Assembly (NCBI RefSeq): GCF_900250075.1
Contig: NZ_LT977072.1
Coordinates: 47,064 to 111,063 of the forward strand
Source: Cupriavidus taiwanensis
Lineage (GTDB): Bacteria > Pseudomonadota > Gammaproteobacteria > Burkholderiales > Burkholderiaceae
Length of the DNA: 64,000 nt
Reading direction: 5' to 3'
The notes beneath the pieces were generated by a model. The model saw only the letters and a program-made list of their open reading frames with translations, did no database searches and had not been told where the DNA came from. Shown one piece after another: positions 351 through 51,506 of the stretch; the first letter of the stretch is position 1; every line of letters starts with the position of its first letter. The position numbers were made by a program, and so were the translations under genes.

Positions 351-1271
<921 letters not shown>

Positions 1272-1286
1272 CCAGGTTTGAACGAC

Positions 1287-1310
1287 AGCCGCCGTGCGCG
1301 CACGGCGGCT
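1287..1310 (+). promoter_or_regulatory. Perfect 24-bp palindrome (hairpin) between nifH and nifD
   Basis: A GC-rich perfect palindrome, two 12-base arms starting AGCCGCCGTG, lies 15 nt after the nifH stop and 25 nt before nifD. No U-run follows, so it is not a classical intrinsic terminator. In other diazotrophs such hairpins act as 3' stabilisers or attenuators that raise nifH mRNA over nifDK; that role here is inferred. Confidence 0.7.
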
Positions 1311-1335
1311 ATTGGGACGAGCATGTTGATTACCT

Positions 1336-2808
1336 ATGGATTACGCGATGACCACGACGGTTGAGGAACGGAAGGCCGCCAACAAGGCCCTCATTGACGA
1401 AGTGCTACGAGCTTACCCTGAAAAGATGGGAAAACGACGGGCCAAGCACCTAAGTTCATTCGAGGAAGGCAAGCCAGATTGCGGGGTGAAGTCAAATATC
1501 AAGTCGCTGCCTGGGGTCATGACGATTCGCGGGTGCGCGTATGCTGGATCAAAGGGCGTGGTATGGGGCCCGATCAAGGACATGATTCATATAAGCCATG
1601 GGCCCGTTGGCTGTGGCCAGTACTCATGGGGATCGCGTCGCAATTACTACGTTGGCACCACGGGCATCGATACGTTCGTTACGATGCAGTTCACCTCTGA
1701 TTTTCAGGAGAAGGACATAGTGTTCGGAGGTGACAAGAAGCTTGACAAGATCATTGATGAGATACAGCAGCTGTTTCCGCTCAACAAGGGGATTTCGATC
1801 CAGACAGAATGTCCGATCGGTCTTATCGGAGACGACATTGAGGCTGTCTCAAAGAAGAAGAGTAAGGAGTATGGCGGGCACACCGTCGTGCCTGTGCGCT
1901 GCGAGGGTTTCCGTGGTGTGTCGCAGTCACTCGGTCATCATTTGGCAAACGACGCGATCCGCGACTTTGTGTTCGATGCTCACTCCAATAAGCGGCTCGC
2001 ACTTGAATCGACACCCTATGACGTTGCTATCATCGGCGACTACAACATTGGGGGGGACGCGTGGTCAAGTCGAATCCTTCTTGAAGAGATGGGTTTGCGG
2101 GTAATCGCACAATGGTCCGGTGACGGTACATTGGCGGAACTGGAGAACACCCCAAGGTCGAAGCTGAATTTGTTGCATTGTTACCGATCGATGAACTACA
2201 TCAGTCGACACATGGAAGAAAAGTATGGAATTCCGTGGGTGGAATATAATTTTTTTGGTCCGACAATGATTGAGAAAAGCTTGCGTGAAGTTGCAAGTCG
2301 ATTTGATGACGCGATTATGGAAAATGCAGAAAAGGTGATCGCTAAATACCGCGCAGTATCTGATGCCGTCATTGCGAAATATAAGCCTCGGTTGCAAGGT
2401 AAAAAGGTGATGCTCTTTGTAGGTGGGTTACGCCCGCGGCACGTTGTAGGGGCATACGAGGATCTAGGCATGGAAGTCATCGGAACGGGGTACGAGTTTG
2501 CACACAATGACGATTACCAACGAACCACGCATTATGTAAAGGATGGCACGCTCATCTATGATGATGTGACGGGGTACGAATTTGAAAGATTCGTAGACCA
2601 GGTGCACCCCGATCTTGTCGGTTCTGGTATCAAAGAGAAGTACGTGTTTCAGAAAATGGGAGTCCCGTTCCGCCAAATGCATAGCTGGGATTACTCAGGC
2701 CCTTATCACGGCTACGACGGATTTGCGATATTCGCACGTGATATGGACATTGCTATCTCAAGTCCTGTATGGAACCTCGCGAAGACGCCGTGGAAAGATC
2801 GAACATGA
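1336..2808 (+). CDS. nifD: Nitrogenase MoFe protein alpha chain
   Basis: Alpha subunit of the alpha2-beta2 MoFe protein that reduces N2; it carries FeMo-co and half of the P-cluster ligands. The 490-residue length is typical. P-cluster cysteines are visible in [18 protein letters not shown] and [11 protein letters not shown]; the FeMo-co ligands are the cysteine of [11 protein letters not shown] and the histidine of [12 protein letters not shown]. The start at 1336 gives MDYAMTTT; the in-frame ATG at 1348 is equally possible because no strong ribosome site marks either. Second gene of the operon, 64 bp after nifH and 70 bp before nifK. Confidence 0.97.
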
Positions 2809-2878
2809 GCAGGGAGATCGCAGCGGCGTATTGGCGTCTAGCGAACGGTTATTTATTATTTACATACAGGAGTGAGTG

Positions 2879-4435
2879 ATGCCGCAATCGACTGACAAAA
2901 TTCTCGATCATGAATTACTTTTCCGGGAGCCGGAATACAGGGCGCTCTTTCAGAATAAGAAAGAGTTCGAATTCAAGGATCCTGAAGAAAAGATAAGGGA
3001 GTTTTCCGAATGGACTAAGACAGAAGACTATAAGAAGAAGAACTTCGCCAGAGAATCACTGACTGTGAATCCGGCCAAGGCATGTCAGCCGCTTGGAGCC
3101 GTGTTTGTAGCAAACGGCTTTCACAAGACACTTCCATTCGTACATGGTTCTCAAGGCTGCGTTGCATACTACCGTTCACATTTTTCGAGGCATTTCAAGG
3201 AGCCGACTTCGTGTGTGAGTTCCTCAATGACTGAGGATGCGGCGGTCTTCGGCGGCCTGAACAACATGATTGATGGACTGGCTAACGCGTACAACCTTTA
3301 CAAGCCCGAGATGATTGCCGTATCCACAACATGCATGGCGGAGGTGATCGGGGACGACCTCGATGCATTCATCAAGAACAGCAAGCAGAAGGGCAGCGTC
3401 CCTGAAGATTACGATGTGCCTTTCGCCCACACGCCAGCATTTGTCGGTAGTCACGTGACGGGTTATGACAATGCGCTACTGGGCATCCTGAAGCACTTTT
3501 GGGGCGGTAAGGCAGGGGCGTCCAACCCGTTGGTCCGAACGCCTGACGACAGTGTGAACTTCATCGGCGGCTTTGATGGCTTTGTCGTCGGAAACATGCG
3601 TGAAATCAAGAGAATATTCGATCTGTTTGGCGTAAAAGTGAACATTATCTGCGACCCGTCGGAAACCTGGAACACACCTACGGATGGCGTGTTCAGAATG
3701 TATCAAGGTGGGACAAGGAAAGAGGAGGTGGAACGCGCACTGAACGCTAAAGCAACATTCGTTTTCCAGGAGTTCTGCTGCGAACGAACAAGTAAGTTTA
3801 TCGCTGAACAGGGTCAGGATGTCGTGGTTTTAAATGCGCCGGTTGGCGTTGGTGGCACTGACCATTTCCTTATGGAGATTTCGCGGGTGACCGGTAAGCC
3901 AATACCAGCTGAACTGGAAAAGGAGCGAGGTCAACTCGTAGACGCTATGGCGGACAGTCAGGCAAGCCTCCATGGTAAGCGGTACGCATTGTATGGGGAC
4001 CCGGACCAGATGCTGGGATACACCCAATTTCTCCTCGAGATTGGGGCTGAACCAAGCCACGTGTTATCGACAAACGGCAACGACGCTTGGGCGGAGAAAG
4101 TACAGGCGTTGCTCGATGCGTCACCATATGGTGCAGGATGCAAAGTCTATCCGAAGCGTGACCTCTGGCACCTGCGCTCTTTGTTATTCACGGAGCCGGT
4201 GGACTATCTGATCGGCAACACATACGGAAAATACTTGGAGCGCGACGCCGGGACACCCCTCGTGCGGCTCGTGTTCCCCATTTTTGACCGTCACCACTAT
4301 CATCGGTACCCCACTTGGGGATACGCTGGTGGTCTTCGCATTCTTATGGCGCTACTCGATGAATACTTTGAAGCATTGGACGCTAGCACTATTGCTGTTT
4401 CGGAGACTGACTACAGCTATGACATTGTTCGGTGA
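2879..4435 (+). CDS. nifK: Nitrogenase MoFe protein beta chain
   Basis: Beta subunit of the MoFe protein, supplying the other P-cluster ligands. The 518-residue length is normal. P-cluster cysteines are seen in [20 protein letters not shown] and [11 protein letters not shown]. The ATG at 2879 is chosen over an in-frame GTG at 2876 because AGGAG at 2868-2872 is ideally spaced. Last gene of nifHDK here: nifE and nifN do not follow, and the downstream DNA passes into IS256 debris. Confidence 0.97.
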
Positions 4436-11926: not shown

Positions 11927-14290
11927 TCAACCGAGAACCTGGACGCGTTGCGCTGCACATTCGAGTCGAATAACGCGTGCGTTCCGCCATTGTTCAAAGC
12001 GGCTGCCGGCACCGATAACGGCGGGAACACCAAGTTCGCGCGCTCTGATTGACATATGTGAATTTTCGCCACCGTACTTCGTGATGAACCCCTTGACGCC
12101 GTGCGTGAATATCCAGTCAAAACCGGGGTCAGCATTCTCCATAAATACGATACTGTCCTTGAAAGACGAACCATATACATCCGTGACAACCCCCTCAACT
12201 GTGATCTCGGTGATGAAGCTCGGGCGGGAGTGGAAGACATGGAAGCCGAAGATGTCTTTCGGTGTGCACAACAGATCAGGCAGGCGCAGATATCTGGTTG
12301 TTTCCCAGTGCTGTCGATTTCTCTCGACTGCAGACCGAAGAAAGGTCGAATGATTGGAGCGAATCTCTAAAGAAAATGCAATGTCGGGCATCGTAAGGAA
12401 CGACAGATCGTCCCTGCTAAGACCAAGATTTGCTCCGACGAGTGCGAGCATCTCCAAGGCGTCCGAAATTAGCCGGCTAAAAGAATGCTTCACGCGTTCA
12501 CGGCCCTGAATCGCCTTCATTGCAAAGGCCTCAAATATCGGCCAATCGAAAGCGTAGCCGGTTCGATCAAACTCGGAAGAAAGGGCTGATATCTGAGCGG
12601 GTGACAGAGCCAAGTCGATGGCGGATACTTCTGTCGGCTCCTCCTTGATGGTGCGATTCATCCAGTCGAAGTATTTACTAATAGGATCGTCGTATCGAGG
12701 AACGGTGATCTCGTATGTGCCAGGGCGAATATGGCCGTGTAATTTTAGAAATTCTGCAGGCTGTAGTGCGGAAAAATCGTTTACTAGTTGGGCTGCAACG
12801 GAGTCGGAGGCGCGCACGACGGCATCCAGGAACCCCGGGCGAAGCAATTTTTCAGACTCTAATGACTTGAGAATGTCCGTCGCTACGAAGGCCGCTCTCG
12901 CGATCTCAGAGAATAGTACTGTGCCATGCACGTGCACTTTTTCGATCAACGATAGTACATCAAGCAATCCGTGGTCCTCATCCCAATTTATAAATCTTGC
13001 AGCGGATTCTAATGCTTCGATGCTGTGTCTAGCACGATCAAAAAGGTCGTCGCCAGTGATAATGCGGTTCGTTAAGGTACGTAGCAGATCCAGGTACGAA
13101 GCCCATTCGTTCTCAGAAAGGCTTGGAAATAGCTCGCGCCAGTGGCCGTCCCTCATTCTTGGTTTGAGGCAAGTTGGAACAACGCGAAATTCTATTTTGT
13201 CATGAAGCTCTGGCTTTAGAATTAAATTGCGTTGAGCTTCGATGATGATTTTTTTTGCTATGGAATGGGGCAATGTGGCCGGTAAAAATGAGGCTACGCT
13301 TGCTGATACAGAAACATATGGTGTGCCGCCAATCATATGCATGAGGGGAACTGCGCGCAAATCTCGGTATCCGAAATTTGCCCGCGCGGAAGCCCAAGCG
13401 GTATTAGTGAACAGGTGACGAAAGATGGAGGCGGCCAATGGCCTTGGCTTAGTTCCTATCAACTCGGCGGGGTTCACATCCGGCATGACTCCGAGAACTT
13501 CCCCTACGAGTCCCTGGCCGTTATTGAAGCTGTTGACGTCCTCGATCGAAGCTTCAACGCAATTCAGTGATTGTAAAAGCTTGTCAAGGTGACCAACGCT
13601 ATATCCACATTTCCGCGGGGCTGTGATTGGCCTTACCTGAAAGATCACCACGGTTCCATTATTCGAGATCCCGAATTCGATATCTACCTCTTTAATACCG
13701 ACAATTTCGATCACTTCTTCGATTGCTGGCACCAAACAGCGGAGAGGCTCCGGTGCGTCGTGGCCTGGTAAAAATATGTAAGTGCGGGTACCGTTTCCAC
13801 CGGAAGTCACAACTGTGGTATCGCCGCTCTCATCGTAACTGATAATATAGTATGGAAGGCCAGATTCAGGGTCGCAAGTCATGACAACGCCACTTACTGC
13901 AATATCTTTAGCCATCGGTTGGACGAACACCTCGTCGGATGGCAATGGGGTGCCGTACGAAGAGAAAACATCACCTATTGCTTGAATCAGTTGCTCATCG
14001 GTACGAACATCTAAGACAGAAAGGTACTGGCCGGCTTTAGATTGCTCCAGACTATCCTCGGATGCTGCGCTAGATCGAACTGCTAGAGGCTCCGATATTC
14101 CAAAAGATATTTTGATTAGTTTGACAATTTTTGTGGAATTCGTGCTCCATTGTGCATGCGTCACACGATGAAGCGGATAGACGTGGAATTTCGAGGCGGC
14201 GGATCTAAGGGCGATTAATGTTTTGGCTTTTGTGTTTTTGAAGGGGGCGACGTCCGAGAAAATGCTCAAGGAGGAAGTTGATTTGTCCAA
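11927..14290 (-). CDS. PEP-synthase-like protein (ATP-grasp plus PEP-utilising domains)
   Basis: A 787-residue protein of the PEP synthase/pyruvate phosphate dikinase/rifampin phosphotransferase superfamily. N-terminal ATP-grasp region around residues 65-230 (PLAVRSSAASEDS, VFVQPMAKDIAVSGVVMTCD, VDIEFG...VIFQVRPI). C-terminal swivelling domain with the phospho-acceptor H745 in GGENSHMSIRARELGVPAVIG. The middle segment is not one I recognise. The domain order fits an ATP-driven phosphotransferase, but the acceptor cannot be read from sequence. The start is a TTG with GGAG 9 nt upstream; the same frame stays open to about 14433 with no ATG, so the N-terminus is uncertain. Isolated between two IS remnants. 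Confidence 0.8.
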   Translation of the reverse strand: MDKSTSSLSIFSDVAPFKNTKAKTLIALRSAASKFHVYPLHRVTHAQWSTNSTKIVKLIKISFGISEPLAVRSSAASEDSLEQSKAGQYLSVLDVRTDEQLIQAIGDVFSSYGTPLPSDEVFVQPMAKDIAVSGVVMTCDPESGLPYYIISYDESGDTTVVTSGGNGTRTYIFLPGHDAPEPLRCLVPAIEEVIEIVGIKEVDIEFGISNNGTVVIFQVRPITAPRKCGYSVGHLDKLLQSLNCVEASIEDVNSFNNGQGLVGEVLGVMPDVNPAELIGTKPRPLAASIFRHLFTNTAWASARANFGYRDLRAVPLMHMIGGTPYVSVSASVASFLPATLPHSIAKKIIIEAQRNLILKPELHDKIEFRVVPTCLKPRMRDGHWRELFPSLSENEWASYLDLLRTLTNRIITGDDLFDRARHSIEALESAARFINWDEDHGLLDVLSLIEKVHVHGTVLFSEIARAAFVATDILKSLESEKLLRPGFLDAVVRASDSVAAQLVNDFSALQPAEFLKLHGHIRPGTYEITVPRYDDPISKYFDWMNRTIKEEPTEVSAIDLALSPAQISALSSEFDRTGYAFDWPIFEAFAMKAIQGRERVKHSFSRLISDALEMLALVGANLGLSRDDLSFLTMPDIAFSLEIRSNHSTFLRSAVERNRQHWETTRYLRLPDLLCTPKDIFGFHVFHSRPSFITEITVEGVVTDVYGSSFKDSIVFMENADPGFDWIFTHGVKGFITKYGGENSHMSIRARELGVPAVIGAGSRFEQWRNARVIRLECAAQRVQVLG

Positions 14291-14433: not shown

Positions 14434-14916
14434 CATTTGGTAATTTTCACATCGACGCTCTGCGAGTACTTCGAGCAACATGCGTGCCAAACTTAAAATC
14501 ATATATACTCACAACTCAATGGATTGATTGAGAGCGGAGACTTTGAAGGAAATGACCAGGGGATCGTGGCCCCTTGAATGTCTATGCGGGTTGGTGTGGA
14601 TCTTCGACGCGCGTGACATGACTGGGCTATTGGGGCCTTCGGTACTGGCTGCGGGCTTTGTCTGGATCTCGATAGGCTGTGGGAATTTTTGATCGAGACA
14701 AGTAGCAATGATCCGTTTGCTGATACAGTAAAGACACTCTTTACTTTCTTTCTTGGTATGTCGCTATATGGTCAATAGCGGCGACTATTGGTGGGGAAGA
14801 TGACGATTTTGTCGTAAAGCTGACCTTTGCTGCTCCGTTCGTGACCGCGAAGCCATGGCAACACTGTTGCGACAAACACGCCAAGGTTCCCGTCCTGTTT
14901 GGGCATTTTGTTTGGC
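14434..14916. other. Gene-free stretch
   Basis: Contains the upstream region of the PEP-synthase-like gene (minus strand) and unassigned DNA up to the ISL3 remnant. No credible gene seen. Confidence 0.45.
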
Positions 14917-33408: not shown

Positions 33409-34190
33409 TCAGAAATTTTGTGTTTAGGGCATATCATGTCGCCAAGGAGCATGTATGCCCCGCAAAACCAAGACGGACCACGCCCCAGACCGTGAACTGC
33501 CGACCATATCCCTGAGGACCTGATTGCCTATTTCGTGAAGTGTCCGATGATCGCCGAGGCCGTTCAGGACGCCTCGATGTCATTCAAGAAGGTCCTGATC
33601 AAACGCGCCCTGGGTGCCGAACTGGGTCAACACCTGGGCTACCCGCGCGGCGCGCAGCGCCAGTCGGTTCGGCCAATCAGCGCAGCAATGGCAAGAGCGC
33701 CAAGACCGTGCTAACCGAAGATGGCCGCTGCGGGTCGACATTCAGCGCGACCGCGACGGCAGCTTCGATCCGATCCTGATCCCCAAGCACGAGCGGCGCT
33801 TCACCGGGTTCGATGACAAGATCATCGCCATTTACGTCCGTGGCATGACCGTGCGGGAGATCCAAGTCTTTGGCCGAATAGTGCGGCACAGAGGTATCGC
33901 CCGAGTTCATCAGTTCGGTGACCGATGCCGTCATGGACGAGATCACCGCCTGGCAGGCCCGCCCGCTGAAGGCGATGTAGCCGGTAGTGTTCTTCGACGC
34001 GCGCGCAGATGCGCGAGGACAGCGTGGCGCGCAACACGCCGTCTACCTGGCCCTGGGCGTGCTGCCGGACGGCACGCACGACATCCTGGGCTTATGGATT
34101 GAAAGCATCGAAGGAGGCAAGTTCCGGATGAAGGTGTTCAATGACCCGAAGACCCGTCGTAGCACGCAGGACAGTCACTGATGACCTTAA
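33409..34190 (+). pseudogene. IS256-family element, left end and transposase N-terminal part
   Basis: Starts with the left end also found at 28841. The reading frame MPRKTKTDHAP begins at 33452, then breaks. Blocks seen in shifting frames: [76 protein letters not shown] and FRMKVFNDPKTR. No C-terminal half follows. Dead. Confidence 0.85.
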
Positions 34191-34656
34191 GGGTATGGAA
34201 CAGGCCTTGAATGCGACGTTCCTGAATACGACCCCACTATCAAAACGATTTTCTTTTCACATTGAGCTTGGTTGCTTAAACCAGATCCACCGTCTTTTCT
34301 CATTCCACCGCTCTGATTACCTCCTGAGTTACAACAGCTGGAGCTGCTGCGCTTACTCTGGCACAGCGATTAATTGTCGCAATGGCGACGAAGACATTCA
34401 TATTTGTCCGTTTATTGACTAAAAGTTGTCGAGTATTTGCAATACTGCCTGCTCAACTGAGGTTTCAACCAAAGAATGTTGGTGGTACGAATCTCGCATC
34501 AAAGTTCCGTCGTCCCTGCCGAGGCAACGAGGCATTGCACAATAGCAATCCAAGGACGGGCGCATATTTGATGGTGAACACATAAAGCCAAAATTGTTGA
34601 AACGCACAATATCTTAGCGAAATTCGTAGAACACTAACTGCCAGTATAGCTGCGGT
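34191..34656. other. AT-rich upstream region of the GT4/GT2/radical SAM cluster
   Basis: No gene recognised. A promoter is expected here; no convincing nod box or -24/-12 element was found. Confidence 0.45.
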
Positions 34657-36063
34657 GTGAGCGACTCCAATTCTCTGAATCGAGTTAATATGACATTTGC
34701 AAAAATGAAATACGATCGGGCCATATTTATATCATTTGACGCAGTCGCGGTATCAGGAATTACCATTGAGGCACTCAAGACAGCGAAAATGCTTTCAAAA
34801 AAAGGTATAAAATCGTACCTGGACCTTGGTTATGATATAAAAGTTGACAAGGGGGTATTTAATAAACCATACGAATGGGAAAAAGACCTCTACGAGGACT
34901 TATTCACTCTTGTTCGCATAGATGACATCACTTCCATAAAAAATTATAACGCCGATTTTATTAAGCGCGCGCATAATTTGTTGATAAATCAACCGTCGTC
35001 AACGACCAGTCGAAACAAAGAAAATATAAAGAGCGACATTATATATGCATCACAGCAACTATCAAAAAAGATTGTTCAGCTTTGGGATAGTCTGAATATT
35101 GGCTATGTTATTGTAGAAAATGGGACGCTTCCTGAAAACATAATTTACACCCGAGCCCTGTACCTCGCCATCGAAGAGTATGGAAAACACAATGGATTGG
35201 GAAACTTTGTTATTTGGCGGGATCATGATTTGATGTGGAGCAGCGAAAAAACCGCCATGAAGTATGGTTCACCACCATACCAAAATGCAATCAAGCCTAT
35301 CAAGTCCAATCACATCACATACGTAACACTCAACGAAGATCTAAAGAACAAACTTGAGGAGTGGTGTAATTATGCCGTTGAGGTCAAGGTTGAAAAAAAT
35401 ACCTACGAATTTAAAGACCAGGTCGGCTACACGAATTTGAGGGAGAAGTTCTCCATCCGTGATGACGATCTTCTTATTGCAAGAACTACAAGAATTATCC
35501 CTCAAAAGCGATTGGACAGGGATATTTATATAATTCATCACCTAAATCGAATTTTTGTTGAAAATTGCATAGACAAGAGGGCGTGGCTTTTTATTGCGGG
35601 GAATCCAAATGAAGATCCAGAATATTATCAACAGCTAGTAACTTTATCCAAAACGCTTAACAGCGAGGGTTCTGTGAGATTTCTCGGCCTTCTTCAGCAC
35701 GGCGGTGTATCCTCCCGGAGCCAAACGTACACTATCGATGATCTATATTATTCCTGCGATCTGGTCTCTTTTCTCACCTCCTGGGATTATGATAGCTACG
35801 GAAATCCTATTGGCGAAGCAATTTGTCACAAACGCTGTTACATCACGACAAGCTATGAATATTATGATGAAGTCTATGGCAAGCATGGCTTCGTTGCTCC
35901 AGTTATGAGGATATCAGAGGGGAAAGATGGCTTGCCTGATCAAGAATTCATTGATGCGCTCTATGAGTTGGTCATCAACAAGCAGCTTACACAAAAAATT
36001 GCAGCAAATAATTATGTTCTAGGAAAACGATTACTTTCTCCTAGGGCCTTTGATATTTTTTAA
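34657..36063 (+). CDS. Glycosyltransferase, family 4-like (GT-B)
   Basis: 468-residue cytoplasmic nucleotide-sugar glycosyltransferase. The N-terminal half carries a substrate-side fold (SFDAVAVSGITIEALKTAKM, GTLPENIIYTRALYLAIEEY). The C-terminal half has GT4 features: RTTRIIPQKRLDR, LFIAGNPNEDPEYYQQL and the donor-site stretch YGNPIGEAICHKR, where the second acidic residue of the EX7E motif is kept and the first is Asp-like. The annotated start is GTG; ATG at 34690 or 34705 are alternatives, since no strong ribosome site marks any of them. Markedly AT-rich with many AAA/ATA/TTT codons, unlike the GC-rich genes elsewhere, indicating recent acquisition. First gene of a three-gene same-strand cluster. 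Donor and acceptor unknown. Confidence 0.85.
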   Translation: MSDSNSLNRVNMTFAKMKYDRAIFISFDAVAVSGITIEALKTAKMLSKKGIKSYLDLGYDIKVDKGVFNKPYEWEKDLYEDLFTLVRIDDITSIKNYNADFIKRAHNLLINQPSSTTSRNKENIKSDIIYASQQLSKKIVQLWDSLNIGYVIVENGTLPENIIYTRALYLAIEEYGKHNGLGNFVIWRDHDLMWSSEKTAMKYGSPPYQNAIKPIKSNHITYVTLNEDLKNKLEEWCNYAVEVKVEKNTYEFKDQVGYTNLREKFSIRDDDLLIARTTRIIPQKRLDRDIYIIHHLNRIFVENCIDKRAWLFIAGNPNEDPEYYQQLVTLSKTLNSEGSVRFLGLLQHGGVSSRSQTYTIDDLYYSCDLVSFLTSWDYDSYGNPIGEAICHKRCYITTSYEYYDEVYGKHGFVAPVMRISEGKDGLPDQEFIDALYELVINKQLTQKIAANNYVLGKRLLSPRAFDIF

Positions 36064-36083
36064 TCGATTTCTTGGGAAGTGGT

Positions 36084-37360
36084 ATGCGAGACAATATTTT
36101 TGTATCTGTCGTACTGCCAATTTATAACGAAAGCGATTGCATTGAGAAGGTACTCGCATCTTTAATCAACCAGAAAACCCATAACGGATTGATTACTCAC
36201 CAAAGTTATGAGTTGATTGTTGTAGACAACAATTCTACGGACGATACCGTCCAAAAAGTAGAGCGTCTTAAATCCGAAAATCCCACTATTGATATCAATA
36301 TCATCCCGGAAGCCGTTCAGGGGGTCTCATCTGCGAGAAAACGGGGTATGGATTATGCGTCGTTGCGTTCAAGAACGAGGGACATTCGCCTGGGGGTGCA
36401 AAAAAACACTATATTGTTTCCTCGGATGCTGATTGCACCGTAGAGCCATACTGGCTGCACGCAATAATAAAAAAAATGATGGATGATAATGGGGATCTCG
36501 GTACGTGCAATTATTATTATAATGAAAGTTTATTCGCCAGTCGTCCGAATCTATTTCGGGAAATCAAAAAAACTTTACGCTGTCGGGAAATGTCCTTTTC
36601 ACTATTCGGTGGTTTTCCAGACGGGAAGGGCTTCGCTGTTGAGCGCAGGTTCTACGACAAGGTCGGTGGCATCGAAATCTTCTACCAACTCAAAAGCGGT
36701 AAATTTGTGGAACATCTTTCCGATGATTGGGATTTTGGGATACGAGTCGTTGCATGGGGTGGCAAACCGGTTTACGCCCGAGATTCCCGGGTAGAAATTA
36801 ACAGTCGTCGGGTTGATACTCTGCTTGACGAGGTCATCACGGGCATCGCCTATGGTCAGGACGGTATTATTATCATGAAGGACGTCCGGACAGAAAAGGG
36901 ACGCCAAAATATTGCGCTGAAAGATACGACCCCCGAACAGTCACAAAATGCCTGGCTCAGCTCAATAAAAGACTATGTTCCCAAGAATATCATTCTGCCT
37001 GTGCTGCTTAATCCACATCTTTTGCTGGAAAATGCACGTGTTCGTGAATTCTTCACTGGCCGCGCGGCAGACCAGCTGTACCGGCGTCTCGAGGAAATTA
37101 AGTATGAAACTCGCATGATCGACTTTAAGTCTATCCATTCCTATAAAACGTCATGCTATCGACTTTATTTCGAATTTCGTGATGAGATCTTTAGCGCCAT
37201 GCGCCGAACCATTGGCGAAGATATCGGCTTCCCACCACCATTGCCAAAGTGTTTCGATGTTGTCAAGCCGGAAGACTTCAAGCGTTTTGTCTATTACTTT
37301 TGTGAGGACCGTGAATCCGGGGAGGCACATAATTATTTCGCGAACGGTGGAGTTTTTTAA
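36084..37360 (+). CDS. Family 2 glycosyltransferase split by a -1 frameshift
   Basis: Read as one protein of about 425 residues, this is a GT2 (GT-A) glycosyltransferase: VVLPIYNESDCIEKVLASL, VVDNNSTDDT, GVSSARKRGMDYAS, then the metal-binding DxD in IVSSDADCTVEPYWL, and DDWDFGIRVVAWGG. The first part is in the frame of ATG 36084 (GGGAAG upstream) and hits a stop at 36443. The second part, from KHYIVSSDADC to the stop at 37360, is in the -1 frame. The switch falls on an A-run that reads CAA-AAA-AAC, i.e. the heptamer A-AAA-AAC. Either programmed frameshifting or slippage produces the full enzyme, or the gene is a fresh pseudogene, or the base call is wrong. The TAA overlaps the next ATG (TAATG), so translation is coupled to the radical SAM gene. 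Confidence 0.75.
36401..36407 (+). other. Slippery heptamer A-AAA-AAC in the GT2 gene
   Basis: The zero-frame codons are AAA (36402-36404) and AAC (36405-36407), preceded by A at 36401. A -1 shift here gives AAA-AAA-CAC and exactly joins the two GT2 halves. The run is seven A (36400-36406), which also permits transcriptional slippage. Confidence 0.6.
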
Positions 37361-38787
37361 TGAACAAAGCAGCGCTAGATTCGTTGAATGACGTCGATGT
37401 TCGCTATCCTTTGCCGCGAGTATATGATTTCCTCTCGAGGCCGGAAAATAGTGAATTTCTAGATTACGTATTTAAGGACACATTCGGCTGCCATGTTTTT
37501 CCCGGTGATATTCTTAATTACCCATATTATTCTTTTTTGGGTGATATGGAGCGAGAGATAAGTAAGGCTAAACAAATCCATCTTTGGTCATATATTCCAA
37601 CTTGTCGCTACCGTTGCCACTTTTGTGCATTCCCCACCGTCATACTCAACCCACAGGTCGACTCCGCGCAGACTGTGTTCCGGGATGTGGTAGATAGTAA
37701 TATAGCAGAAGCAAGGCATTGGCTTGAGAGTATCCCAGGCCTTCGCCGAGCAGAGGTTGGGGAGTTTAATATCTTCGGTGGCACGCCATCACTACTTCCT
37801 CAGCGCGAACTGCGACGCTTAGTGGATTTTTATCGATGCAACTTTAATTTGTCGGCTGCATCGATGCGGTTTGAAGGTGATCCGGGAACGCTGACTAAAG
37901 AATATTTGAGTTTTTTAAAAAGGATAGGTTTTTCCAAGATCAGTTTTGGCGTGCAGTCTTTCAATGAGCATATTATCAAAGCATCCGGTCGTGCGCATTC
38001 AGCCCGCGCTTGCATGGAAACCGTTCATGACGCACGCGAGGTCGGTTTCGATTGGATTAGTGTCGACCTTATTTATGGACTCCTCGGGCAAAGTGTCGAT
38101 GACGTGAAACGGGACATGGAGAAGGTTCTAGAATTGGGGCTCTCTCATGTTGTCTGCACCAAGCTGCACATCGGTGAGTTTATGAGAAGACGCACCGGTG
38201 TTTCCGGCGAGCGACAAAGTTTGTGGCAGAAAAGAAAAATTTTCGCTAATAAGGGAGGGTTCCCTGGTTTAGGTAAGCAATATCAAATGCGGGAGCTTGT
38301 GGAACAGTACTTGTCCTGCAATTATCTGGAGCATCCCACAATGTACTTCCATCATAGGAATCATCCCCCCGAAAAATGGAAGGGATTAGTCACTGATCTT
38401 GGTAAGCAGTATCCAGAGGTGGCTATTGGTTTGGGTGGTAGCTCGAAGTGTACAACAGCCGAAGCTATCAACATAACTGGATACAGTAGATACAAGGAAG
38501 CACTTGGCAAGCATCGCTTGCCCATTGAAGACAGCCGAGGCATCTCCCGGGCTCATGGTGAAATTAATGCGTTCAAAATGGCCTTGTCGACATTAGTCCC
38601 AGTGAATGATGATGTGTTTAAAGAACGTTTTGAGGGGCGGAGTTTTTTTGCCAATCCGAAGATCAATCGTGCGCTGAATGCGCTGGTGGGAAAAGCACTC
38701 GTCACCGTTGACGATAATATCGTTACTTTGACTCCAAATGGCGTGACCCTCGTGGAAGCGGTGATTAACACGCAGTTCGGCGCCTAA
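37360..38787 (+). CDS. Radical SAM protein, HemN/HemW-like
   Basis: 475-residue radical SAM enzyme. The [4Fe-4S] motif CX3CX2C is C82, C86, C89 in PTCRYRCHFCAF. HemN-family features follow: GGTPS (140-144), RFEGDPGTLT (170-179), FGVQSFNEHIIKASGRAHSA (196-215), IYGLLGQ and a C-terminal HemN_C-like part (from about 380). True HemN acts in haem synthesis and HemW in haem transfer; neither sits with glycosyltransferases. Class C radical SAM methylases and cyclopropanases of natural-product clusters share this HemN-like architecture, so a tailoring role on the glycosyltransferase product is the better guess. ATG overlaps the GT2 stop by one base. Confidence 0.85.
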   Translation: MNKAALDSLNDVDVRYPLPRVYDFLSRPENSEFLDYVFKDTFGCHVFPGDILNYPYYSFLGDMEREISKAKQIHLWSYIPTCRYRCHFCAFPTVILNPQVDSAQTVFRDVVDSNIAEARHWLESIPGLRRAEVGEFNIFGGTPSLLPQRELRRLVDFYRCNFNLSAASMRFEGDPGTLTKEYLSFLKRIGFSKISFGVQSFNEHIIKASGRAHSARACMETVHDAREVGFDWISVDLIYGLLGQSVDDVKRDMEKVLELGLSHVVCTKLHIGEFMRRRTGVSGERQSLWQKRKIFANKGGFPGLGKQYQMRELVEQYLSCNYLEHPTMYFHHRNHPPEKWKGLVTDLGKQYPEVAIGLGGSSKCTTAEAINITGYSRYKEALGKHRLPIEDSRGISRAHGEINAFKMALSTLVPVNDDVFKERFEGRSFFANPKINRALNALVGKALVTVDDNIVTLTPNGVTLVEAVINTQFGA

Positions 38788-41639: not shown

Positions 41640-42183
41640 GACATTGGGACCCATTGGCGACGATAGCTCACACAGAATTTGTTGGAGCGCGCGGGCAAAT
41701 CTACTGATGATGCCCTGCGTGAGCGCGTACCAGGGCAAGACGTTAATGGCGCCGCGATCCTGCCGGTGCACGAGTAAGGGCGAGTTCGTAGCGTCCAATT
41801 GGATGCCGCAGGCCATGTGCCAAGTAAAACCAGTCGCTGATATGGCCAAGACGAACTAAGTTGATGCAATTAATACGAGTGGTGATGCGCTTGCTGTAAT
41901 CGACCACTGTCATTTGGTACTCGAGTGAGTTGGCTGCAATGCGGGCCACATATGTATCGATCGCCCGATCGGTCTTACGTCGCAATCGGGTCTGATCATC
42001 CCTCCATACCTGCAACGTGTGCATCCCATCCTTGCTTTGGAATGTAGCACGGTAAAAAAGCGCGGCCGGCTCAGCACGGGCACCAAAGGCCGCGTCGAAG
42101 GTTGGCGCCAACTGTCCAGCTTCGCAATCTGGACCGGAAAAGAGCATACGAGTGCAGCGCTGGCTAAGAGCGCCCCCCGCCAT
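41640..42183 (-). pseudogene. Hypothetical protein, frameshifted
   Basis: Minus strand reads LFYRATFQSKDGMHTLQVWR, RLRRKTDRAIDTYVARIAAN, and ISDWFYLAHGLRHPIG; a second frame carries a continuation (TNSPLLVHRQDRGAINVLPW). It looks like an exported conserved protein of Burkholderiales that I cannot name. The N-terminal signal peptide appears degraded. It directly follows the phosphatase pseudogene on the same strand and was probably its operon partner. Confidence 0.5.
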
Positions 42184-44090
42184 TATCGACGGAAAGCCTT
42201 GGCATAGTCGAAGTACCGATAGGTCTTGCCGTCGACGATCAACTCCTTGACGGCTAGCTCGATAGAGTAGGTACCCTGCGTAAGCGCCAGATCCTTCGTA
42301 TTACCGGTCGGGTCGGTGGGCAGTTCAAAATTCAGTGCGGGCGCCAGCGCGGTGCTGCAATGGTTGCGGGCTTGATCACAGGGGTACACAAGCTTGCCGG
42401 TGCCTGTTAGGGCTTCATTAAGAATGCGGCCGTCGGCCTGCGTCCAACAGATAAGCCACCGTGGGTGCCACGTCGACATTGCCAGTAGGGTTCGAGATGA
42501 CAGCGCTAGTGCGGAATGATGGCCCACTGGCAATCAGCGTGTTATGCACGTCGGTACGGCCGAAACTACAGTGTATGCCGCCGTAGCCTCCGGCGCTTTC
42601 GAACTCGTGCCAGGCATGCCTTGAACCGCGACCTCGTCATCCCAATTGAAGCTGACTACCACGTCAGGTTGGATGTTATTTTGCCGCTGTGCATTCTCAA
42701 GGTTGACCTCGACATCGGGAGGGTGCCCGGCAGGAAACCATAGCGATTGTCGATAAAGATAGCACCGTACTCCTCCCGTTGCCGCAGGAATTTGACCAAA
42801 TTCTTGATAGTGCTCGAATCGTGGCTGGGCACGTAGAAGTAGTCGGATCCACCGTTTGCCGCAACCACAATGCCGTTTGCGGGTAGGTTGCCCGGTGACG
42901 GCCCTTGAAACTGGCCACCGGCGTAGCTAGTCCTGCGCTGATCGCTTGGAACTTTGTACTCGGCGAGCCGCAAGGGTGACTTTGGAATCTATCTTTACCG
43001 GCACGGTCGGCCTGCCGTTGGCCTGCAGTCCATACAAAGTCGAGGTCGTGCAGCCCGAACCATCGTAGGCCTTAAAGCCCCGAGAGGTGCAGGTCTGCCG
43101 AACGCACATCCCCCGAGAAGGAGAACCCGGTGTCTGATAGCGGGCCGATTGCAGCCATGTCTGTGCCGCTGGTAGAACCGTTGACATGAGTGCCTGTCGG
43201 AGGCCTGCGCAACGCGTAATCGCACGCAGCGGATACAATGACAAGGGGCCCGATACGCTCGTATGGCCATCATCGGAAACGATGACTAAGTTTGTGCTGG
43301 CGTACAAGCCGTTTGTCTTGAGCGCGCTGATAAGTTCTCCCAAGCGTTGATCCTGAGAGCGTAGTCCCGCAATTGCTTTGCGGCGAACCGGGGCCATAGC
43401 CGTGTTCCCCGTTGCCGGGTGTGCGGAACCAGATTAGCGAAAGCATGGGCTGCTACTTTGGCAGGATGTAGTTTGTGTACACCGAAAGCATGTACTTGTT
43501 GGCCGCATCCTCGGGCGCACCCTGAGTAGTGTCTGCGCCGCGGCAACGGCTATCACGTCATTGGCGGAGTCATAGGTCGTGGTATTGAAGGTGACATAGC
43601 CGGCGCGCGCTGTCGGGTCGTCATTGTTAGCCGTCAACGTCACCGCTTCGGCTGGGGAATAGCCGAACCGCGTGTTAAGCGGCAACGCAATGCCAGTGTT
43701 CTGCAACTCCGTCACCAAGCTCCGCGGCTGCACTGTGATTTCGTCCAGGAAATAGCCTCCTTCACCGAGGTCTTGGATGTAGGCGGCTCCCGACTTGCCG
43801 ATAGTGGCAGTAGAGAGACCTGCGGCCTGTGCCGTGGCAAACAAACTCTTAATTAGCAGTAGCTGGTCGCCGTAGTAATTTCCAAGTATCGACAAAACCT
43901 GGTAGTCCTCGGTGAAGATTGGGTTGACGTAATCAGCCTCGGCGGCGGTTGTCGTGGCTCCATTTGGCGTAGCGCGTTTACCTGAGGGGATGCTGTTAGA
44001 TGCACCTCGCGTAGTGGTAATGTATTGACATAGAACCCGCTGGTTTTTGGAAACGACCCCGTCGACAATATCTCTAGTCCTTTAGATGCA
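42183..44090 (-). pseudogene. Alkaline phosphatase/phosphodiesterase family protein, multiply frameshifted
   Basis: Minus-strand fragments in order: NPIFTEDYQVLSILGNYYGD with QLLLIKSLFATAQAAGLSTA, TIGKSGAAYIQDLGEGGYFL, FNTTTYDSANDVIAVAAAQT, RLGELISALKTNGLYASTNL, VIVSDDGHTSVSGPLSLYPL, YFYVPSHDSSTIKNLVKFLR and LALTQGTYSIELAVKELIVD. The IGKSG nucleophile region and SDDGHT metal-binding block belong to the type I phosphodiesterase/alkaline phosphatase superfamily. At least four frame changes; no function expected. Confidence 0.8.
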
Positions 44091-48132: not shown

Positions 48133-49749
48133 CTATCTGAGTTTAAATTCAATAATATTCTGAAGTCCGGCGGGCCCACAATAATTTATACCGGTTTCTT
48201 GAAAGCCGGAATTGAGATATGTTCTCATGGCTATGGAGTTACGCTTGTTGACAGCCAGCATAAGACGATTTACATATTGTCTATTCGACAGAATCCAATC
48301 TACCGCCAATCCAGATGTCGCCTTACCATATCCATTGCCCTGATATGGTTGTCCAATACGGAAGCTATGCATAGTGATAGCGTCTGATGACGCCCACTCC
48401 GGCAACGCGTCCCTTTCACGCAGGACAAAAAAACCAACTATTTCATCACAGACCACAACCGCGCATGGGTGCTCATTCTCGTGATGAGAACTACGTTGAA
48501 GTTCAAGGAACACCGTATACAACGGATCGACGAACTGCCTCTGCTCGGGCTTCACGTCGAGGTGGGAAACCGACGCGCAATCGTCACGGGATAAAAATAC
48601 CAGCCTAGCGTCGCGAGCCTTTTCGGTAGATGTAGTAGCCCTGTACTGTCGGTGTAAATCCCGCTCAAGCGAGGTACTGTCGGACACTCGTCGCGGAGGC
48701 GTGTGAGAATTCGTGGACACTTGGCTAGTAAGGACTTGGTCGAGCGTACGCCCGCGCCACGCATAGGCAGACCACACGTTAATCTCTTGGGTGGGTGCGT
48801 TAACCGCCACTGGTTCTTTAGGCACCGGTGCAGGCCATCCAGGTACGGATGAGAGCCAGTTTTCGTCATAGACTGTCTCGACATACCGATGACCCTCATC
48901 CGGGAAAATTGCGACTACCTTTTTTCCAGGATTTTTTCTTGACCACCAGTCGGCCACTTTGTACGCTGCCCCACTAGTGGGGCCCATGAACAATCCGTAA
49001 AGTCGATGCAACTGATGAGTTGCATGAAAAATCTCGACGGGCGTTAGCCAGTGAACTTCATCAAACTGGGTATGATCTACATTGGAGGGTACGAATGCGC
49101 CACCAAGGCCGCTGAGGGATATCGGTTTTCCGCCGTGTTGCCCAAACAGGACAGAGTTCGGAGTGTCGACACCAATTGCGTTCAACTCAGAAAACAGTGT
49201 TCGAATAAACGTGGCCGTGCCGCACATCGATCCGCCTGATCCAACAGGCCCCACCAGACAATCAATTTTTCCCACTCTTTCGATTAGGAACTCCGCAATT
49301 TTCCCGTAGGAAATCGGATTATCCATGTTGGAGTACTGTGAGGGCCAATAGCTGCCGGGGATCGCCTTTAGGTATTCGGCGAGCCTGTTTAATCGCGCTT
49401 GCTGAAGTCCGCCGGAGCGCGCCGGTTTGTCTACAATTTCAACCTTTGCTCCTAGTTCTAGAAGTCTTTTATGAAGATGCCGATCGAGTGCCCAGTCACT
49501 CACGAGTATGAGGTTGTATCCATACTGAACAGCAAGCATGGCTAAAGCGAGGCCAAAAGTTCCGGATGATGACTCGCAGATAGTGGCGCCTGGTTTTAGC
49601 AAACCTTGATCCGATGCCCGCTCCAACATAAATCGCGCCGGTAAGAGCTTCATAAGGAAAAAACTTGCGCCATACAAATCGTCACTCAACTTAACGATTC
49701 GAGGATTTTCAAAATCTTCCAAATTCCTCATTACATTTATATTAGCCAT
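48133..49749 (-). CDS. CysK/SbnA-like PLP enzyme fused to a GNAT acetyltransferase
   Basis: 538-residue two-domain protein. Residues 1-320: fold-type II PLP enzyme of the cysteine synthase group. The Schiff-base lysine is probably K34 (FLMKLLPARFML aligns with the SVKDR block); the substrate loop reads ESSSGTFGLALA instead of the CysK TSGNTG; the phosphate-binding loop is GPVGSGGSMCGTA. Residues about 390-538: GNAT fold with an acetyl-CoA loop IGQPYQGNGYGKA and NKRNSIAMRTYLNSGF. The PLP domain most resembles the beta-replacement enzymes that use O-phospho- or O-acetyl-amino acids; the GNAT domain could then N-acylate the product. Located 15 bp downstream of a GHMP kinase on the same strand, so probably one operon. 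I know of no characterised protein with exactly this fusion. Confidence 0.85.
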   Translation of the reverse strand: MANINVMRNLEDFENPRIVKLSDDLYGASFFLMKLLPARFMLERASDQGLLKPGATICESSSGTFGLALAMLAVQYGYNLILVSDWALDRHLHKRLLELGAKVEIVDKPARSGGLQQARLNRLAEYLKAIPGSYWPSQYSNMDNPISYGKIAEFLIERVGKIDCLVGPVGSGGSMCGTATFIRTLFSELNAIGVDTPNSVLFGQHGGKPISLSGLGGAFVPSNVDHTQFDEVHWLTPVEIFHATHQLHRLYGLFMGPTSGAAYKVADWWSRKNPGKKVVAIFPDEGHRYVETVYDENWLSSVPGWPAPVPKEPVAVNAPTQEINVWSAYAWRGRTLDQVLTSQVSTNSHTPPRRVSDSTSLERDLHRQYRATTSTEKARDARLVFLSRDDCASVSHLDVKPEQRQFVDPLYTVFLELQRSSHHENEHPCAVVVCDEIVGFFVLRERDALPEWASSDAITMHSFRIGQPYQGNGYGKATSGLAVDWILSNRQYVNRLMLAVNKRNSIAMRTYLNSGFQETGINYCGPAGLQNIIEFKLR

Positions 49750-49764
49750 TTTTCGAAATCGCCT

Positions 49765-50646
49765 TTATGTGTGCACGATAAACGATTCAAAGCCTGAGCG
49801 CCTCAGCTCACGGGTGGACAATTCGATACGCTCTGCGGAGCTGACGTCCGCAGGGTCAAACATCAAACCAAAAACAGTTCCGCTGTGGGCAACTTGGACT
49901 CCTATCGCGCCATGCCGGAGACCGATCTCTTCCAGCCTGTCAAAGTGGGGATTTCGCAAGAACCTCTGGTTGATCCGGGCGCTTGCCGTAGCAACTCGGC
50001 CGAGCAAGTTGAGATCGGAAGTGTTAATCGCTTGACGCAGGAGAGCCCGCAGTGAGCGAAACTTCTCAATCTCTACTTGGTTATAATCGGCGGGTGTAAA
50101 TGTAAGTGTGTCGACGGCCTCTGTTTCTGCTGAATCAATGCTGATGAGATCGACATTGGGAATTGGCCTTTTGAAGGCCTCAATTACCAGCCCCTCGCGT
50201 TGCGCAAAAAGCACGGCGGGATGAGAAAAGATCGTGGAATCACATGCAGTCTCTGCCGCCACCGCAATTTGCATTATACGATCAAGTGACGCTTGAATAT
50301 TTAAGTAGTCAAGCACGGCCAAGATGGTTGCCACTACATCTGCAGTAGAAGATCCCATGCCGCGGCCGATGGCGATGTTGCTTGTAATTATCACGCTTCC
50401 GCCGACTCTCGTTTGTGCGAAGGAATCTAGCGTAAGCTCAGCAGCACGTTTCGCCTTTATGCAACGTTGTGGGCTAACAGAAACGCGAGTTTCTTCATTG
50501 GCTAAAAAGCTCACCTTTGACCTCAGGTTGGGACAAGGTAGCGAAACCAAGCCACGGTGAAGCTTCTTCGATTCGCTTTCAAAAACTCCCTGGAGAAGCT
50601 CGCCGTGATGCCCAATGGCTTCACCAAAACCTTCTTTAAAATGCAT
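49765..50646 (-). CDS. GHMP-family kinase (threonine/homoserine-kinase-like)
   Basis: 293-residue small-molecule kinase. Motif 1 region GEAIGHHGELLQGVF resembles L-threonine kinase PduX; motif 2, the ATP-binding loop, is GRGMGSSTADV (94-104); motif 3 is HSGTVFGLMFD near the C-terminus. It would phosphorylate the hydroxyl of a small amino acid such as Ser, Thr or homoserine. Immediately upstream of the CysK/SbnA-like-GNAT gene, whose family often consumes O-phospho-amino acids, so kinase and replacement enzyme plausibly act in series. No strong ribosome site precedes the ATG. No cobalamin genes nearby, arguing against a PduX role. Confidence 0.85.
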   Translation of the reverse strand: MHFKEGFGEAIGHHGELLQGVFESESKKLHRGLVSLPCPNLRSKVSFLANEETRVSVSPQRCIKAKRAAELTLDSFAQTRVGGSVIITSNIAIGRGMGSSTADVVATILAVLDYLNIQASLDRIMQIAVAAETACDSTIFSHPAVLFAQREGLVIEAFKRPIPNVDLISIDSAETEAVDTLTFTPADYNQVEIEKFRSLRALLRQAINTSDLNLLGRVATASARINQRFLRNPHFDRLEEIGLRHGAIGVQVAHSGTVFGLMFDPADVSSAERIELSTRELRRSGFESFIVHT

Positions 50647-51506
50647 AAGGAGCCTATAAATTTCGGTTTAAAGTTATTGATAGGCGGAGAAACGGATTTT
50701 TCAAACCGATATCCGCGAGAAAAAACTTCTCGACCATAAAGAAGATGTGATATATCGGCAGCCGAAAAGTCGAAATCGTGCTTGCGCCCATCGATTGGAT
50801 GAAGCATTTATGCATGGATCACAAGAAACTGATAATACATGCCGGTTCTCCCTGGGCGCATGGTAGTGAAACGGTGACATCACCGCGCTCTTTACGCGAA
50901 AATCCCTAACGCATACTCGGCGTGACCCGTGCTTGGATTCGTCCTGTTGGGCGATAACTCGCCGGTCGGCGCCGAGGAGAGCTACGCGTTCAGAGAGCGG
51001 TAATGGTCCAACACGTCCGCGGCGCGCTCGCGGCGGCCGCCCTCCAATTTTGGTACCGGGAAGGCGGGCCGCGCTCGACGTGCACTCCAAAATACGCACA
51101 CGCTCTAGCTCTACTATTCTCGTCATGTGACGAGTCGGAACGGGTCGCACCTATTCACCTCGATCTGATGTGTTCATTGACGCTCGAAATTGAACTGCGA
51201 GCGGCAAATGCGAGATTCGTGCCCACTCCTTTTGAGTTCTGACCATACGGAAGCTAGACCGCGTCCCGGTTAATTTTTGTTACTGAGGTAGACAATCAAG
51301 GCCGACAACCGAGTCATATTGTGTCGTTGTTACGACAAGCTCATTCGCTCGCCGTTCGGAATCGGTACAAGGCGCGGCGGAGGGAATAGAAGTTGCGAGT
51401 AGCACCTTGGCCGCATTCGGATCGTCGGTGTGGGACGACGTGGTCCGGTGGAGCAAAGGGGCGTGTGAAACCGTCTCGAGATTTGGGGGATAAAGGGAGG
51501 AAGAGC
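50647..51506. other. Divergent intergenic region
   Basis: Between the minus-strand GHMP kinase and the plus-strand small gene. A plus-strand frame 51003-51242 (MVQHVRGALAAAALQFWYRE) and one at 51340-51493 (AAEGIEVASSTLAAFGSSVW) have protein-like composition but no recognisable family or ribosome site. Promoters for both directions should be here. Confidence 0.35.

Follow-up and report, generated by a model that had tools for sequence, protein, structure and literature searches.

Our data point toward a conserved and horizontally mobile three-gene operon on a Cupriavidus taiwanensis-like symbiosis plasmid, which we consider rather likely to direct the synthesis of a small glycosylated molecule and to be expressed, in rhizobia, inside nitrogen-fixing nodules. 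The operon lies in a 64-kb stretch of DNA (the window) on one contig of a 6.77-Mb genome and comprises, all on the plus strand, the genes for a GT4-type glycosyltransferase (GT4; 34657..36063; 468 amino acids from a GTG codon, with a likely start at 34690, as in the RefSeq equivalent), a GT2-family glycosyltransferase (GT2; 36072..37360), and a HemN-type radical S-adenosylmethionine (SAM) protein (rSAM; 37360..38787; 475 amino acids), whose CX3CX2C motif is formed by C82, C86, and C89. GT4 and rSAM are whole in the window, and GT2 and rSAM overlap by TAATG at 37358-37362. The original prediction, made from the window's sequence alone, had described both of these open reading frames (ORFs), the overlap, and a nif-bearing surrounding, and all of this was borne out; nifHDK is found at about 390-4435, at the start of the window.

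GT2, predicted as a single ORF, is split in the window into two (36072-36443 and 36476-37360), since an A-run at about 36400 is one A short. The plasmid of C. taiwanensis STM 8555 (NZ_LT984809.1) reads GT2 through (429 amino acids), and this is its only difference from the window over the 31,425 bases compared. Because it is a one-base homopolymer difference between otherwise identical sequences, the split is most simply explained as an error in sequencing or as a change that happened very recently.

Conservation and spread of the operon

Neighborhood conservation had been set beforehand as the test of the original prediction. We compared 86 loci, fetched by rSAM alone: the best 80 of 115 GTDB relatives from an rSAM motif scan and 6 of 10 plasmid matches (H1, H2, H3, H5, H6, and H9), with one locus (L012) being a near-identical copy of the window. 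GT4, both GT2 parts, and rSAM were detected together in all 86 by tblastn, and the order GT4-GT2-rSAM was kept in 85 (81 when spacing was judged strictly, plus 4 with broken or interrupted genes). The ORFs were whole in 86 loci for rSAM, 84 for GT2, and 81 for GT4, the failures including contig-edge cuts. Between the Cupriavidus copies, the ratio of nonsynonymous to synonymous substitution rates (dN/dS) was 0.14 to 0.24, which, at the level of codon substitutions, shows the triad to be under purifying selection. Taken together with the presence of all three genes in every locus, this means that, as judged from the sequences compared, the conservation of the triad is more than chance.

The carriers span Alpha-, Beta-, and Gammaproteobacteria and Actinomycetota. 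Close relatives of rSAM were found by protein search in Cupriavidus, Azotobacter, Sinorhizobium, Paraburkholderia, Pseudomonas, Kosakonia, Serratia, Arsenophonus, Xenorhabdus, and many Actinomycetota, and protein searches with GT4 and GT2 gave a similar spread. In the rSAM tree, whose root was not used as the outgroup branches are saturated, the Sinorhizobium and Paraburkholderia copies group across classes (SH-like approximate likelihood ratio test support of 93), and the label "rhizobial" requires 3 changes compared to 17.5 in shuffles. Because of this grouping and the low number of label changes, transfer of the triad between symbiosis plasmids is likely on phylogenetic grounds. The cluster had also been called AT-rich and foreign. 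Its GC content is indeed about 43.8%, whereas the flanks of the near-identical STM 8555 locus have 55.1%. Of the 86 loci, however, values were available for 55, and in every one of these the triad had a lower GC content than the DNA around it. AT-richness thus seems to be as much a property of the triad family as a sign that the cluster arrived here recently.

In part of the loci, the operon is longer. A gene for a protein of 267 amino acids (D1) follows rSAM in 33 of the 86 loci (32 of the 34 gammaproteobacterial loci and Pseudoduganella), a gene for a major facilitator superfamily (MFS) transporter is also present in 27 (in one case only partially), and a second D1-like gene accompanies it in 26; in Kosakonia sacchari, rSAM and D1 are fused (754 amino acids). 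The only locus with a deviating gene order, that of Pseudoduganella flava (L042, 8721-15663), has the arrangement GT2-rSAM-D1-MFS-D1like-GT4. Because GT4 has moved there to the opposite end of the extended operon, beyond D1 and the transporter gene, gene order supports the view that D1 and the transporter belong to the same system as the triad. D1 (example L015:16450-17253) has two internal repeats and matches no Pfam family over the cut-off. Its structural model (mean predicted local distance difference test score of 91) resembles, at the fold level only, an anthrone-oxidase-like protein and the monooxygenase PenE, and the leading matches in the PDB were dimeric barrels of the monooxygenase type, with template modeling scores of about 0.4 to 0.55 and 8 to 17% identity. 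The model thus hints at a monooxygenase-like protein. The rhizobial and actinobacterial loci are bare triads, and in a list of up to 60 neighbor families inspected by eye, no extra gene held a fixed place there beyond single lineages.

The radical SAM protein and the two glycosyltransferases

By sequence criteria, rSAM is a distinct HemN-type subfamily and neither HemW nor HemN. The predicted fold is HemN-like, with both the radical SAM core and the HemN-type C-terminal domain present, and some source records name the protein coproporphyrinogen oxidase or HemW; a function in heme metabolism, next to glycosyltransferases that are there incidentally, would be in line with the fold and these names. 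This explanation is already contradicted, and we consider it extremely improbable. The HNxxYW motif is present in none of the 86 family members, and neither is PRYTSYPT, the N-terminal motif that marks HemN. rSAM scored 101.4 bits against both the HemW model TIGR00539 (cut-off, 205.4) and the HemN model TIGR00538 (cut-off, 325), and it reached none of the NCBIfam cut-offs listed. A separate HemW (HNLNYW motif; 362.9 bits against TIGR00539) is encoded elsewhere in the genome, as is a HemN-like protein with PRYTSYPTA. Orthology to HemW or HemN, the former named in the original prediction as the finding that would speak against it, is excluded by these scores, motifs, and separate proteins, and the strict conservation of rSAM with the glycosyltransferases also argues against an incidental neighborhood. 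What rSAM has in common with HemW is a related radical SAM domain. The highest NCBIfam score was obtained with the STM4012-family radical SAM protein (NF006067; 114 bits), far from its cut-off of 380 and with an alignment confined to the radical SAM core (residues 68-258).

The best sequence match in the PDB was NocN (9p2u), a class C methylase of the NocN/NosN type; in the search with the family profile, NocN and HemN were tied. NocN was not among the matches listed in further rSAM comparisons, an absence that is uninformative. The residues corresponding to Gly100-Thr101, Gly157, Arg171, and Asp196 of NocN are kept in all 86 loci. In contrast, Tyr34, Arg153, Ser225, and Arg230 of NocN are replaced by Trp76, Lys193, Val265, and His270, each in 86 of 86; Trp76, Lys193, and His270 are thus invariant features of the family. 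The tyrosine that stacks on the second SAM is Y56 in HemN and Y34 in NocN according to the part of the source available (PMC13266988). The tryptophan at this position in rSAM is aromatic and able to stack, and the residues for the first SAM are kept; the catalytic Tyr276 of NocN lies outside the alignment. NocN works in a thiopeptide pathway, whereas the partners of rSAM are two glycosyltransferases. The original prediction had named a C-methylase or cyclopropanase specifically, which goes further than the fold and the SAM-site residues that constitute the evidence.

A further HemN-like radical SAM protein is encoded on the same contig outside the window (contig positions 181114-181836). It has the motif CRYRCTYC, neither HNxxYW nor PRYTSYPTA, and by eye its gene directly precedes a class I methyltransferase-like gene, a candidate HemN-like pathway of its own.

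The N-terminal piece of GT2 in the window matches Glycos_transf_2 (PF00535; 63.7 bits, cut-off 23.3), as does the GT4-GT2 fusion of Paraburkholderia phymatum (75.9 bits). GT2 forms a discrete family: in the protein search, the E-values rise abruptly from 1e-34 to 5e-7. The window's GT4 matched no Pfam family, but of the 35 family members, 25 matched Glycos_transf_1 (PF00534; E ≤ 0.01); no PDB sequence match to GT4 was obtained at E ≤ 0.01. In 59 of the 86 loci, including P. phymatum (889 amino acids), GT4 and GT2 share one open frame, and because they are so often one protein, the two glycosylations are suggested to be sequential.

As for the product, the original prediction had left the choice between a glycosylated metabolite and a modified surface glycan; we prefer a small glycoside. 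It is imaginable that the glycosyltransferases build or branch the repeat unit of a cell-surface polysaccharide (lipopolysaccharide [LPS], exopolysaccharide, or other) and that rSAM alters one of its sugars: GT4 weakly matches VpsD/PelF and GT2 exopolysaccharide glycosyltransferases, all far below the cut-offs, and the P. phymatum glycosyltransferase gene Bphy_7707 is filed under cell wall/membrane/envelope biogenesis in the part of PMC5979394 available. However, across genera only D1 and the MFS transporter hold a fixed place by the triad, no polysaccharide-export or polymerase set was noticed in the same neighbor list, and the same triad occurs in Actinomycetota, which lack LPS. A role in surface glycans is therefore unlikely. 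Even less likely, in our estimate, is a compatible solute or storage glycoside kept inside the cell (for example, one related to mannosylglucosylglycerate) that protects bacteroids from stress and is modified by rSAM. One GT4 relative with 38% identity is labeled mannosylglucosylglycerate synthase by its source, GT2 weakly matches glucosyl-3-phosphoglycerate synthase, and a solute would fit the rhizobial loci, which have no MFS match. But these names derive from one automatic annotation and one match that falls far short of the cut-off, 27 of the 86 loci have a transporter gene in the operon, and we know of no radical SAM step in such solute pathways.

Nodule expression, promoter pattern and nodA

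A connection to symbiosis, which the original prediction had missed, is indicated by the expression of the orthologues and by co-occurrence with nodA. In bean nodules formed by a P. phymatum nifA mutant, Bphy_7706 (rSAM) and Bphy_7707 (glycosyltransferase) were changed by −4.07 and −4.98 log2 units (PMC8305402), and Bphy_7707 was down by 3.6 in nodules of the rpoN mutant (PMC5979394). In the parts of both papers available, the genes are table or list entries with no assigned function, and the available part of PMC5789663 has nothing on them. In their NifA dependence, the P. phymatum orthologues are like the NifA/RpoN-controlled accessory genes of rhizobial symbiosis plasmids, and a NifA-site-like and sigma-54-like pattern is present at the Cupriavidus and Sinorhizobium loci.

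In the window, a sigma-54-like −24/−12 promoter (TGGTACGAATCTCGCA; 34483..34498, plus strand; 9 of 11 scored positions) precedes GT4. Two NifA-site-like elements on the same strand, each with one mismatch to TGT-N10-ACA, are located 92 bases (TGT-N10-ACG, 34375..34390) and 62 bases (TGTCCGTTTATTGACT, 34405..34420) upstream of it. The nifH promoter of the window (at 227, with its site at 132) has the same score and the same one-mismatch TGT-N10-ACG type of site, and in five Sinorhizobium/Ensifer loci a site of the same type as that at 34405 is found 62 to 63 bases from a matching promoter. Among the 83 loci scanned (excluded were L042, with a misplaced GT4 coordinate, and L055 and L074 at contig edges), the pair of site and promoter was present in 10 of 18 rhizobial loci, a count inflated by near-copies, compared to 1 of 65 others; letter-shuffled upstream sequences gave it in 85 of 3,600 cases. 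By genus, the pair was found in 3 of 3 Cupriavidus, 5 of 5 Sinorhizobium/Ensifer, 2 of 7 Paraburkholderia, and 0 of 3 other loci.

Two other places in the window carry similar sequences. Upstream of genes for a GHMP kinase and an SbnA-like pyridoxal phosphate enzyme (48133-50646, minus strand; named from RefSeq and NCBIfam matches below the cut-off), a sigma-54-like GGGCACGAATCTCGCA, close to the core of the triad promoter, is located at 51224 (minus strand) together with an exact TGT-N10-ACA site; the same-named P. phymatum genes Bphy_7478 and Bphy_7479, shared by name only, are NifA dependent in nodules according to the part of PMC8305402 available. A full-score sigma-54-type sequence, TGGCACGCATGTTGCT at 14489 (minus strand), stands before a gene for a phosphoenolpyruvate/pyruvate-binding-domain protein (about 11927-14269, minus strand).

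nodA and nifH were searched in 48 genomes, drawn from 50 of the 80 GTDB loci with L062 and L063 left out. nodA was present in 14 of the 48 carriers, and these are 14 of the 16 alpha- and betaproteobacterial ones, the exceptions being Pseudoduganella and Pseudochrobactrum. In a sample of 299 Burkholderiaceae, 3 carried rSAM, all of them with nodA; nodA itself was present in 15, 12 of which had no rSAM. With the window's own genome removed, both remaining carriers had nodA (chance, 0.002). A sample of 297 Rhizobiaceae (rSAM in 3, nodA in 17, nodA in 2 of the 3 carriers) was not used as proof because it was centered on a known carrier. nifH was detected in 17 of the 48 carrier genomes, including all three Frankia carriers tested. 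Three nodA-positive Paraburkholderia (L022, L023, and L027) gave no nifH match at E ≤ 1e-80, and for this reason, nifH was not taken as a marker. In P. phymatum, the operon is located near nodA, nodS, nodU, and cysC on the symbiosis plasmid, with efflux genes between.

Several observations weigh against a nodule-expressed pathway. None of the gammaproteobacterial and actinobacterial carriers tested has nodA, and therefore, the triad system as such is no nodulation trait. Nor is it, by plasmid comparison, essential for symbiosis, because the C. taiwanensis symbiosis plasmid NZ_CP016951.1 has nif (96% identity) and was not among the rSAM matches. D1 was found in none of 15 rhizobial genomes searched whole, including the window's own (a control genome gave both copies), and no MFS match was found in rhizobial loci, which lends no support to secretion there. 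Apart from the split GT2 of the window, some other GT4 and GT2 copies are broken or cut as well. As for the promoter evidence, the thresholds of the scan were chosen after the alignments had been seen; the window has nine promoter-like places (triad, nifH, and seven others), most of them probably there by chance; and exact NifA sites are found in only 1 of 18 rhizobial and 0 of 65 other loci. No pair of site and promoter was detected at the R. jaguaris-type loci or in P. phymatum, the species with the expression data, where control by NifA may therefore be indirect; rSAM is unnamed in the available rpoN-mutant passages of PMC5979394.

Proposed pathway and flanking features

In our model, GT4 and GT2 would add two sugars to an acceptor. 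Since no recurrent scaffold-making gene was seen beside the triad, the acceptor likely derives from primary metabolism. The HemN-type rSAM, probably with two SAM bound, would then carry out a carbon-centered radical step on the sugar or the acceptor, which may be a one-carbon transfer or a HemN-like hydrogen abstraction or decarboxylation. In gammaproteobacteria, the MFS transporter and two paralogous monooxygenase-like proteins usually extend the operon, and because the operon includes a transporter, the product is suggested to be secreted there. On rhizobial symbiosis plasmids, the operon may have been stripped down to the core triad and have come under the control of NifA and sigma-54. Regulation by NifA would restrict the oxygen-sensitive radical enzyme to the low-oxygen nodule, with expression in microaerobic, nitrogen-fixing bacteroids, where such an enzyme can work.

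Tentatively, the model may be extended to a bacteroid-specific, radical-SAM-modified diglycoside that is made in nodules by the legume symbionts Cupriavidus, Paraburkholderia, Sinorhizobium, and Rhizobium under NifA control, and perhaps by actinorhizal Frankia, and to a secreted effector or antimicrobial made by the same operon in free-living plant- or insect-associated bacteria. In the nodule, the compound might be a host signal, or a rhizopine-like or antibacterial good for kin. As the original prediction had supposed, no description of the system was found in the full-text literature searched, a coverage that excludes most subscription papers and the review of HemN-like proteins, PMC10114718. 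If the model is correct, the operon stands for an uncharacterized natural-product family that Alpha-, Beta-, and Gammaproteobacteria share with Actinomycetota and in which the partner of the glycosyltransferases is a distinct HemN-type subfamily; its product is a candidate specialized metabolite of nitrogen-fixing bacteroids under NifA. Direct testing is possible, since nodules of the nifA and rpoN mutants of P. phymatum have already been studied by transcriptomics and metabolomics.

The cluster had been described as bounded by insertion sequence remnants. This holds for the left flank, where a remnant of a Mutator/IS256-type transposase gene is located (33614..34102, plus strand; PF00872, E = 9e-11); on the right, a single ORF was tested, and its matches were all of the helix-turn-helix kind and below the Pfam cut-off. 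No Rfam match exceeded the gathering score in the region from 33.5 to 39.5 kb. Further downstream, adjacent minus-strand ORF pieces at about 42180-43900, one of which the STM 8555 record assigns to the alkaline phosphatase family, appear by eye to be the remains of a decayed gene.

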